Source: Solobacterium sp. (GTDB taxonomy: Bacteria; Bacillota_I; Bacilli_A; Erysipelotrichales; Erysipelotrichaceae). Taken from it: a stretch of 19,912 bases of DNA. The notes below the pieces were generated by a model. The model saw only the letters and a list, made by a program, of their open reading frames with translations. It was not told where the DNA came from and made no database searches. Both the position numbers and the translations under genes were made by a program. Shown here in pieces: positions 840 to 3,260 of the stretch (its first letter is position 1; every line of letters begins with the position of its first letter). The DNA is taken from assembly GCA_017514645.1 (NCBI GenBank), contig JAFWJP010000206.1, forward strand, positions 1 to 19,912, in the 5' to 3' direction.

Positions 840-884
840 CCAATTCCTGCCCAAAATGCAAGAATACTGCCAAGGAAAACAAAA

Positions 885-977
885 ATGCTGAAACTTGTGA
901 ACCTCCATCATCATGACCATCAGGTGATCCATCATCACCATCTTTTGCTTGATGTTCATGGGATAGTGCGTTTGTAG
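885..977 (+). CDS. Histidine-rich leader peptide (transcription attenuation)
   Basis: This is a 30-codon reading frame, ATG 885 to TAG 977, with a ribosome binding site AAGGAAA at 872-878. His is encoded at residues 8-10, 12, 16-19 and 25, that is nine of thirty residues, eight of them within twelve codons. The codons are mostly CAT with one CAC. It lies directly upstream of a strong terminator (1004-1043) and the gene for an amino-acid binding lipoprotein. This is the classical layout of an amino-acid leader peptide, as in the enterobacterial his operon leader with its run of His codons. A ribosome stalled for lack of charged tRNA-His at 906-941 would leave 956-970 free to form an antiterminator, while one that reaches the stop would cover it. 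The peptide itself is presumably without function. Identity as a regulatory leader is inference from structure and position, but all parts are present. Confidence 0.82.
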   Translation: MLKLVNLHHHDHQVIHHHHLLLDVHGIVRL

Positions 978-1019
978 GGTTTGATCATACATTCAGGATG
1001 AACTGCCGCCTTCCCGTGG
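956..1019 (+). promoter_or_regulatory. Candidate antiterminator of the histidine attenuator
   Basis: Positions 956-963 (TCATGGGA) pair with 1012-1019 (TCCCGTGG) in eight contiguous pairs including two G-U pairs. GCG 968-970 additionally pairs with CGC 1007-1009 across a small internal loop. This consumes most of the 5' arm of the terminator (1004-1015), so the two structures exclude each other. The upstream strand overlaps the last codons of the leader peptide, where a terminating ribosome would mask it. A smaller hairpin 923-928/934-939 within the His codons could act as the pause structure. Pairings were worked out by hand; no folding energies were computed. Confidence 0.6.
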
Positions 1020-1043
1020 CTGAATGGGAGGGCGGTATTTTTT
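1004..1043 (+). terminator. Attenuator terminator upstream of the amino-acid transporter
   Basis: The 5' arm 1004-1015 pairs with 1026-1037 in a 12-bp stem (core CCGCC/GGCGG and CCC/GGG) with a 10-nt loop 1016-1025, followed by six T at 1038-1043 and a further TTTT after one G. It lies between the His leader peptide and the next ribosome binding site (AGAGGAGAAG just before 1068), so it must be regulated for the operon to be expressed. Confidence 0.88.
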
Positions 1044-1067: not shown

Positions 1068-1943
1068 ATGAAAAAACTATGGGGACTGCTGGGTATCACG
1101 CTGATGCTCGGAACAGGATGTGCAGCACAGGAGACAGAGAGGGATCCGTCTGTCGGAGCGGGAATTCCCGATGACGCGACAGGCAGGCTGGCAGAGATCA
1201 AGGAACGCGGGTATCTGACAGTCGCAACGGAGCCGTACTGGATCCCGAACGAATTCATCGACCCGACACTGACCGGAGATGATCAGTATGTCGGTTCCGA
1301 CATTGAACTGGCGAAGTACATCGCGGACAAAATGGGCGTGGAACTGCGGATCATTCCGCTGGAGTTCTCGGCTGTACTGGCATCGGTACCGGAAGGAAAG
1401 TACGACCTGGCCATTTCCGCGCTTGCCTATACACCGGACAGAGCTGAAGCCATGGAAATGTCCAAGGGGTATTACTTCTCGACCGAGAATGCCGGCTACG
1501 GGATCCTGGTGCCGGAAGCGCTGGTCGGTGTGATCGAAGACGCAGACGACCTTGCGGATTATACGATCATTACACAGTCCGGATCGATCCAGGAACTGAT
1601 GGTCAATGAACAGGTACCTGCATACAAGGAATTCAAGCGTGTCGGTTCCATGACGGATGCGTATCTGGCTGTTCAGGAAGGCAAGGCGGACGCCGCTGTC
1701 GTTGCCCGCAGTTCCGCACAGCTCTATGTAGACAACAACCCGTCCTGCGGTCTGGTCGTACTGGATTACCGGTTCTATCTGCCGGAGGAGTATGACGGTA
1801 CCCGGATCGGTATGAAAAAGGGGGAAACGGACCTGCGGGACTATGTCAACGAATGCATTGATGAACTGATTGCGTCCGGTCAGTACAGTGAATGGTACGA
1901 CTACTACACGGAGTACGGCAGAAAGCTGGGTATTGAGAACTGA
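1068..1943 (+). CDS. Amino-acid ABC transporter substrate-binding lipoprotein (probable histidine)
   Basis: This is a family-3 extracellular solute-binding protein that captures an amino acid outside the membrane and hands it to the permease encoded next. The 291-residue protein has a basic N-terminus, a hydrophobic segment and a slightly atypical lipobox ending LGTGC, with the lipidated Cys at 18. The mature part starts with the family pattern EIKERGYLTVATE, then VGSDIELAKYIADKMG and a YDLAISALAYTPDRAEAM block, matching periplasmic HisJ/GlnH-like proteins in order and length. The start ATG follows AGAGGAG with good spacing. Its TGA stop shares one base with the start of the permease (TGATG), indicating translational coupling. 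Substrate specificity cannot be read from the protein alone; histidine is inferred from the His leader peptide 90 bases upstream. Confidence 0.9.
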   Translation: MKKLWGLLGITLMLGTGCAAQETERDPSVGAGIPDDATGRLAEIKERGYLTVATEPYWIPNEFIDPTLTGDDQYVGSDIELAKYIADKMGVELRIIPLEFSAVLASVPEGKYDLAISALAYTPDRAEAMEMSKGYYFSTENAGYGILVPEALVGVIEDADDLADYTIITQSGSIQELMVNEQVPAYKEFKRVGSMTDAYLAVQEGKADAAVVARSSAQLYVDNNPSCGLVVLDYRFYLPEEYDGTRIGMKKGETDLRDYVNECIDELIASGQYSEWYDYYTEYGRKLGIEN

Positions 1944-2608
1944 TGACCTTCTTTCAGCAGATACTGAAACTTCTGCAGACATACAGTGATATCTATCTGC
2001 GGGGATTCTTCGGAACGATCCGCCTGTCGGTCATTACGATGTGTCTGGCCGTGGTGCTGGGTACACTGGTATCTCTGGCAAAGAACGGAAAGAGCCGGCT
2101 TCTGAAGGGTGTAATCAACGTATATATTGAGATCCTGCGGGGAACACCGCCGCTGCTGCAGCTGTATTTCTTCTGGATCCTGCTGCCGAAGGTACTGCCT
2201 TTTGAGCTCTCGGATACGGTGTGTATTCTGACTGCGCTGATCGTCAATGCGAGCGCCTATGTAGCGGAAGTCATCCGGGCAGGGATCCAGGCCGTGGATC
2301 CGGGTCAGCGGGAAGCTGCGCTGTCCCTTGGCATGAGTGAACGCAATATGATGATGCGCATCATCCTGCCCCAGGCAATCAGGAGTATTCTCCCGGCCAT
2401 GGGCAATGAGTTCATCAATATCATCAAGGGAACGTCTCTGGCTTCGGTATTCTTTATCAATGAGCTGACGACGAGCTACCGTACCGTACAGTCCGCAACC
2501 TTTCTCGCCCTTCCCAGCATCATGATCGCCGGCATGATCTATCTGGTCCTGAACTATGTGCTTTCCCGAGGAGTAGCGGCGGTAGAGCGCAGGCTGGCGG
2601 TGGATTAG
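1943..2608 (+). CDS. Amino-acid ABC transporter permease, HisM/GlnP family
   Basis: This is an integral membrane subunit of a polar amino-acid importer. The 221-residue length and five or so hydrophobic segments are typical. Family hallmarks are the EILRGTPPLLQLYF block (residues 63-76) and the EAA loop, residues about 124-144, with EAALSLGMSERNMMMRIILP, the site that contacts the ATPase. Another conserved stretch, NEFINIIKGTSLASV, follows. Only one permease gene is present, so a homodimer is likely. The ATG overlaps the stop of the binding-protein gene by one base. No ATP-binding subunit is encoded beside it: the next gene is a cyclase-family enzyme 43 bases downstream. The ATPase must be supplied from elsewhere, which is unusual because these genes normally sit together. 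The EAA loop appears intact, so an ATPase partner is expected. Confidence 0.92.
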   Translation: MTFFQQILKLLQTYSDIYLRGFFGTIRLSVITMCLAVVLGTLVSLAKNGKSRLLKGVINVYIEILRGTPPLLQLYFFWILLPKVLPFELSDTVCILTALIVNASAYVAEVIRAGIQAVDPGQREAALSLGMSERNMMMRIILPQAIRSILPAMGNEFINIIKGTSLASVFFINELTTSYRTVQSATFLALPSIMIAGMIYLVLNYVLSRGVAAVERRLAVD

Positions 2609-2651: not shown

Positions 2652-3260
2652 ATGAAGATCGATATTACCCTGGAAGTAACACCGCAGATGATGGAAGCTG
2701 CCGGAACCAATCAGAAGAAAGCATTCTCCGGACATCTCGGTACACACTTTGATGTCATGAACAAGGAGTTCCCACTGGAATACACCGAACGCGAAGGAAT
2801 TGTCTTTGACGTATCAATGATCAAGGACCGTGACATTGAAGTGACGGATATCGGTCTTGCGGATGTAAAGGAGAATATGTTTGTCGCCTTCTGCAGCGGG
2901 TTCATCGAAGAGGCGGGATATGGGACAGTACGCTATTTCAAGGAACACCCGCAGCTCAGCCGGGAACTGATCAAAGCGCTCGTTGAGAGAAACATCTCGA
3001 TCATCGGTGTCGATTTCGCCGGGATCCGGCGCGGAAAGGAACATACAGCGGCAGATCAGTACTGTGCCGATCACAACGTCTTCGTCGTGGAGAATCTGTG
3101 CGGTCTGAAACAGCTGCTGCAGGAAGGCCCTGCGTTTACAGCACATACGTATCCGGTGCGGTATACCGGTATGAGCGGTCTGCCGTGCCGGGTCATTGCG
3201 GAAATAAAAACAGTCCCTAGCGGGACTGAATATGCAGCAGGATCTCCGGCAGCTGTCTGA
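2652..3260 (+). CDS. Cyclase-family protein (kynurenine formamidase-like metal hydrolase)
   Basis: The protein has 202 residues from ATG 2652, chosen because AGGAAAG lies at 2638-2644; an in-frame TTG at 2610 is less likely. The metal-binding signature HLGTHFD (residues 28-34) gives two His and one Asp ligand, as in the cyclase/isatin hydrolase/kynurenine formamidase family. The following Pro-x-His of the longer HxGTHxDxPxH motif is absent. A second family block, IIGVDFAGIRRGKEHTAADQ, and VFVVENLCGL near the C-terminus also fit. The reaction is unknown: members hydrolyse amides or cyclic amides. Its place at the end of a probable histidine-uptake operon suggests an amino-acid derivative as substrate, which is inference. 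The last 14 codons run into the opposing HAD gene and carry that gene's terminator hairpin, so the natural C-terminus ends close to residue 188. Confidence 0.82.
   Translation: MKIDITLEVTPQMMEAAGTNQKKAFSGHLGTHFDVMNKEFPLEYTEREGIVFDVSMIKDRDIEVTDIGLADVKENMFVAFCSGFIEEAGYGTVRYFKEHPQLSRELIKALVERNISIIGVDFAGIRRGKEHTAADQYCADHNVFVVENLCGLKQLLQEGPAFTAHTYPVRYTGMSGLPCRVIAEIKTVPSGTEYAAGSPAAV
3202..3228 (-). terminator. Terminator of the HAD hydrolase gene, inside the cyclase 3' end
   Basis: CAGTCCC 3211-3217 and GGGACTG 3222-3228 form a perfect 7-bp stem with the 4-nt loop 3218-3221. Read on the minus strand it is followed by TTTTTATTTC (3210 down to 3201). The stop codon of the minus gene (3217-3219) lies at the loop. 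On the plus strand no T-run follows, so it should work only for the minus gene. Confidence 0.85.

Follow-up and report, generated by a model that had tools for sequence, protein, structure and literature searches.

The 19,912-nucleotide stretch analyzed here, referred to as the window, comes from the genome of a gut bacterium of the Erysipelotrichaceae (1.73 Mb, 69% complete). By its binding-protein gene, the nearest named relative is a Solobacterium metagenome-assembled genome (MAG; 88% identity), and the original prediction of a probable Firmicute, made from the sequence alone, was right. At this locus a short histidine-rich open reading frame and a terminator precede genes of an amino-acid ABC importer. 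The features, with the basis of each assignment in parentheses, are as follows:

15-776, + strand: upstream gene, in the same direction as the leader
872..878, + strand: probable ribosome binding site AAGGAAA (sequence; the flanking AGGAAAACAAAAATG is identical in L060)
885..977, + strand: leader peptide ORF, 30 codons, nine of them His (ORF; shuffle test)
898..974, + strand: predicted protector hairpin of the leader when untranslated, 898-927 with 945-974 (fold)
906..920, + strand: first His cluster HHHDH, codons 8-12, also part of the protector hairpin
930..941, + strand: putative main control codons HHHH, codons 16-19; a stall here would leave the antiterminator strand free (pairing probability 0.91)
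956..970, + strand: antiterminator 5' strand, pairing with 1007-1019 over 13 bp (fold; 0/300 shuffles reach the observed probability)
957..959, + strand: ninth His codon (25), within the antiterminator strand; a stall here would mask the strand (probability 0.02)
974..977, + strand: antiterminator extension, pairing with 1003-1006 over 4 bp (fold)
1003..1019, + strand: antiterminator 3' strand, overlapping the terminator 5' arm 1004-1017 (fold)
1004..1037, + strand: intrinsic terminator hairpin of 14 bp, 1004-1017 with 1024-1037, loop of 6 (fold; -26.0 kcal/mol)
1038..1043, + strand: terminator T-run TTTTTT (sequence)
1068..1943, + strand: SBP_bac_3 lipoprotein, the substrate-binding component of an amino-acid ABC importer and probably a histidine binder (Pfam PF00497, E 1.7e-25; regulation of orthologs)
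1943..2608, + strand: importer permease, BPD_transp_1, HEQRo family (Pfam E 9e-25; TIGR01726 above cut-off)
2652..3260, + strand: putative cyclase-family gene, possibly co-transcribed (Pfam PF04199)

The leader peptide, MLKLVNLHHHDHQVIHHHHLLLDVHGIVRL, has His at codons 8-10, 12, 16-19 and 25. In 100 dinucleotide-shuffled windows, ORFs of 10-40 codons contained at most seven His codons, and nine were reached in none (0/100). The original prediction had described this ORF, a ribosome binding site, a 12-bp terminator with its T-run at 1004-1043 and a mutually exclusive antiterminator. We recovered each of these elements, with a modest Shine-Dalgarno sequence whose flank is shared with the nearest relative, a terminator hairpin of 14 rather than 12 bp, and an antiterminator that includes the pairing of 974-977 with 1003-1006. 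The predicted protector hairpin, which occupies the antiterminator strand, was absent from that earlier description. The fold of 885-1045 has a z-score of -2.18, with 6/200 shuffles equally or more stable.

The presence of both a family 3 binding protein and an HEQRo-type permease (Pfam, TIGR01726) fits a HisXYZ-type importer. No importer ATPase was found 3' of the permease in the window; an ATPase occupies that place, taken here by the cyclase-family gene, in 11 of 21 relatives' loci, and the ATPase of the window importer may lie elsewhere in the incomplete genome. Searching positions 700-1100 of the window by consensus yielded no sigma-70 promoter. At gathering score, Rfam matched one tRNA in the whole window, with neither the his operon leader (RF00514) nor a T-box (RF00230).

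We consider this locus to encode, very probably, an ABC importer for histidine under a ribosome-mediated transcription attenuator that responds to histidine; the host, a member of the Erysipelotrichaceae, would be a histidine auxotroph. Computation yielded the sequence elements, their conservation, the exclusive folds and the other histidine sensors at orthologous genes, and from these we infer how the leader would be translated and used in the cell. With ample charged tRNA-His, a ribosome would reach the leader stop and cover 956-977, so that the terminator at 1004-1043 would form and RNA polymerase would halt ahead of the importer genes. Under a shortage of charged tRNA-His, the ribosome would stall on the HHHH cluster and leave 956-970 free to pair with 1007-1019 before the 3' arm of the terminator is made; once this antiterminator has formed, transcription would run into the binding-protein and permease genes. 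RNA that is not translated would fold into the protector hairpin, in competition with the antiterminator.

Leaders and other histidine sensors at orthologous importers

The search for binding-protein orthologs covered 70 genomes of the genus, 272 of the family and a collection of 84,980 species, the last giving 38 named loci. The genomes are MAGs; the five leader genomes other than the window's own (G000, 69%) are 92-96% complete. In the six genus genomes that matched best (E at most 6.9e-139), the binding-protein gene is preceded by a His-rich leader and a terminator, and the His-rich frame is thus kept upstream of the orthologous gene in five genomes besides that of the window. The five leader peptides are:

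L060 (A): MTQLFTNLFHYDHQVIHHHRFLLEAHGTVRL
L061 (B): MTFTVQQQLHHEHHAVAHHHHHFSVTAQKPVCLYR
L062 (D) and L065 (C), identical: MFRFTAMHHHHHHVTDRSSVSASL
L066 (E): MFSTFKEMRHHHHHHTIGRAPVLSSL

The protein of a seventh genus member, G085, is more distant (E 1.9e-77), and its gene has a T-box with specifier CGU (arginine). TTGACA-type promoter matches lie directly 5' of the leader in L065 and L066; for L065, shuffles give about the same number. Short start-coded ORFs with at least four consecutive His codons, a pattern that misses shorter runs (three or fewer), were also looked for at all nine His-run places of the window genome (19 pattern matches) and at a sample of the matches in five relatives, 48 loci in total. 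Besides the importer leader, three short ORFs came up (L119, L152 and L153), of which L119 looks by eye like a longer coding sequence read in the wrong frame.

The 38 named ortholog loci comprise five with a His leader, seven with a CAC T-box, ten with a HisR-like operator and 16 in which none of these was found; by sequence, 22/38 carry a candidate histidine-responsive element. The CAC T-boxes among the named loci are L073-L078 and L096, and L098 is also CAC. The codon was read from Rfam alignments for L073, L074, L096, L076, L078 and L098, at what we take to be the specifier column; for L075 and L077 only the motif string gave it. The ten HisR-like palindromes agree with the published HisR consensus at 11-14 of 14 positions (a cut-off of 11/14 chosen after the scores were known), each equaled in at most 2/200 shuffles. 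Sites were possibly missed, since the scan covered the 300 bases before the start of the tblastn match and not before the gene start. L100 looks HisR-like by eye and was entered as "none found" in the tree.

Regulator and biosynthesis genes were distributed as follows. The TrpR/HisR family (PF01371) was present in 5/5 genomes tested from among the 10 loci with HisR-like operators, and was found in 0/6 leader genomes, the window's being only 69% complete, and in 0/2 CAC-T-box genomes. TIGR02531, also of the HisR/TrpR family, matched in 0/7 genus genomes, with the same incompleteness of G000. Histidinol dehydrogenase was found in none of the six leader genomes and is present in G085, and hisG likewise had no match in the five leader genomes among those listed (G019 stands outside that list). 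The leader genomes look unable to make histidine, that is, they look like auxotrophs.

The original prediction saw no T-box RNA, which holds for the locus but not for the genome, where there are 15 T-box matches, nine of them over the cut-off. In the window's genome, a T-box at G000:C75:7558-7773 (L035), with CGU (arginine) at the specifier column, adjoins a different family 3 binding protein. Two genomes of a single genus have tandem T-boxes, both CGU, ahead of a binding-protein paralog (L101:2155-2606 and L102:2380-2831). Five leader genomes have a full hisS, each with a T-box motif ahead of it (L187 and L190-L193). Only L187 passes the Rfam gathering score, and as its specifier column reads GAC overlapping CAC, we draw no claim from the hisS T-box.

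Judged from the predicted regulation, histidine is probably both the signal and the substrate. The CAC T-boxes and HisR-type operators at orthologs support this, and lend independent support to the earlier proposal of histidine as the probable substrate. The attenuator could be real and the main substrate another, such as arginine, lysine or a His-containing dipeptide or derivative, with histidine only one of its loads; the nearest binding proteins of solved structure have a general amino-acid range, no NCBIfam equivalog cut-off was met, and paralogs of 37-44% identity carry arginine T-boxes. We regard this as unlikely, given that three unrelated histidine sensors are found at the orthologs, whereas the arginine-T-box proteins form a separate clade with support of 100/99 (in a tree that left out L035 and L095 as too short). 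The motif T-E-P-Y occurs in 13/13 aligned histidine-regulated proteins as against T-S-P-D in the arginine-T-box proteins, a contrast that is partly biased because TVATEPY was one of the two search patterns; L100, found by profile, also has T-E-P-Y.

Folding of the leader with the ribosome at different positions

The nascent RNA was folded from the edge of the stalled ribosome up to the loop of the terminator, on the assumption that this edge lies 13 bases beyond the first base of the A-site codon. For ribosome positions at His codons 8-19 of the window leader, the terminator 5' arm was held upstream with a mean probability of 0.91, compared to 0.02 for a stall at codon 25 and 0.01 for a ribosome at the stop. 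Folding thus agrees with the earlier proposal that a ribosome at the stop masks the antiterminator while one stalled on His codons leaves it free. The value of 0.91 was matched by 0/300 shuffles of the stretch before the 5' arm and by 2/300 synonymous recodings of the post-stall codons. The predicted protector appears imperfect, because without a ribosome the 5' arm was still held upstream with a probability of 0.43 in the window and 0.72 in A.

Leader A, from the nearest relative, in which the antiterminator strand and the terminator 5' arm are nearly unchanged, folds like the window (0.95 stalled vs 0.09; 2/300 shuffles). Folding of B is marginal (0.75 vs 0.14; 18/300 shuffles). Candidate antiterminators exist in C, where CCGACCGGT would pair with ACCGGTCCGG, as well as in D and E, but they do not rise above shuffles (202/300, 192/300 and 200/300 for C, D and E, respectively). 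The alternative stems, whose conservation in relatives the original prediction proposed as a check, are clear in A and less so in the others. Alignments of these few sequences (two close and three other leaders) gave no firm compensatory changes. When the antiterminator was scored as a bare duplex, the window was strong (4/1000) and the only strong one of the six leaders, with 115, 47, 137, 147 and 255 of 1000 for A, B, C, D and E. A Fisher combination over the window, B, C and E, leaving out A and D as near-copies, gave p = 0.018 for synonymous recodings and p = 0.0024 for shuffles.

The full-length fold favors the terminator in every state of every leader; in the window, a stall at codon 19 gives -33.1 kcal/mol with the terminator vs -21.0 without it. 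As the terminator is the stabler complete fold in all states, read-through would depend on kinetics, that is, on the order of folding. Switching by order of folding is accepted for classical leaders. The same thermodynamic lead of the terminator would also suit a leader that works mainly on translation or RNA stability, by reinitiation or coupling, with the hairpin as a partial terminator, and leader ORFs can also act via reinitiation according to the available part of PMC4833913. We find this improbable, as a strong hairpin and T-run lie between leader and gene in all six leader genomes (the window, L060, L061, L062, L065 and L066), and the importer start, ~25 bases 3' of the T-run, is unsequestered.

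Two further explanations are very improbable. Histidine runs bind metals, and the His-rich peptide might sense zinc, nickel or copper in place of histidine supply, but the gene is an amino-acid importer whose orthologs carry histidine sensors, and no metal regulator or transporter was seen adjoining it. A plain end-of-gene terminator for the upstream gene (15-776), preceded by a chance ORF, would accord with the co-directional gene and the lack of a consensus promoter in the window, but the His-rich ORF is beyond chance and kept in six genomes, and at L002 the upstream gene is divergent, which leaves no transcript from upstream for the terminator there to end.

Relation to known attenuators and exchange of regulators

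The original prediction set the histidine attenuator in a phylum that mostly uses T-boxes, a setting that needs correction, as Firmicute His leaders had already been published for biosynthetic and hisS-like genes (PMC9413887, PMC2965389; statements on these and the other papers cited here refer to the parts available to us). In PMC9413887, candidate His-leader attenuators precede his biosynthesis operons in six Erysipelotrichales, five Eubacteriales and six members of the Bacillus cereus group, and His leaders are proposed for lineages without HisR or a histidine T-box. Importers of Erysipelotrichales (hisXYZ) are listed there with T-boxes only (Holdemania, Clostridium innocuum), and the paper makes no mention of Solobacterium and reports RF00514 from no Firmicute. 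The Erysipelotrichales his-operon leaders belong to the same order as the window and likewise have a His-run leader peptide, a terminator and an antiterminator; they differ in target, biosynthesis there and an importer here, their leader sequence is unrelated, and the His codons of the window fall in two clusters. Among 30 hisG loci from one order-wide search, four (L157, L159, L160 and L165), all of one genus of the family, have short ORFs ending in HHHHT or HHHHHT followed by a hairpin region, which is the published his-operon kind of attenuator.

Similar comparisons can be made with other systems. The enterobacterial his operon leader (RF00514) has the same logic of a His-codon stall acting on protector, antiterminator and terminator, whereas gene, phylum and sequence differ and the window has no match at gathering score. 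His-stretch leader peptides also precede hisS paralogs and hisZ in bacilli (PMC2965389), targeting a synthetase paralog and hisZ where the window leader targets an importer. Leucine-rich and branched-chain attenuators of Staphylococcus aureus and Listeria (PMC5794164, PMC5864092) are Firmicute leader-peptide attenuators as well, but for other amino acids and for biosynthesis genes. The histidine T-boxes and HisR operators at orthologs serve the same gene and the same histidine-supply signal by other means, the T-box being an RNA that reads uncharged tRNA and HisR a repressor protein; neither was found at the window locus. In open-access papers, without their supplementary files, we found no importer described as being under a His-leader attenuator. 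Given that his-operon leaders are published and importers are listed with T-boxes, the mechanism is known, and the target and lineage are new. Histidine leader-peptide attenuation in Firmicutes would thereby be extended from biosynthesis to uptake.

The six leader-bearing proteins form two clusters, one of the window, L060 and L061 and the other of L062, L065 and L066, and no leader or terminator sequence common to both was seen. Two origins of the leader attenuator are therefore possible; a single clade of leader-bearing proteins is not rejected (AU p = 0.157). The combined proposal, that three unrelated sensors act on one orthologous importer across lineages and that the leader attenuator arose twice within one genus, is tentative and somewhat doubtful. 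Together, the data suggest that the importer of these histidine auxotrophs answers histidine supply via a ribosome-sensing leader, while kin use a repressor or a T-box. The same importer under HisR, a T-box or a ribosome-sensing attenuator would represent a natural experiment in regulator swapping, in which one can ask why sensors replace each other. Bearing on such a swap are the apparent histidine auxotrophy and the five leader genomes that have a T-box motif at hisS yet a leader peptide at the importer. As a separate observation, ZTP riboswitches lie ~2.3-2.8 kb upstream of the importer ortholog (L067, L071, L097, ~1.2-1.7 kb) in three Lachnoclostridium MAGs.
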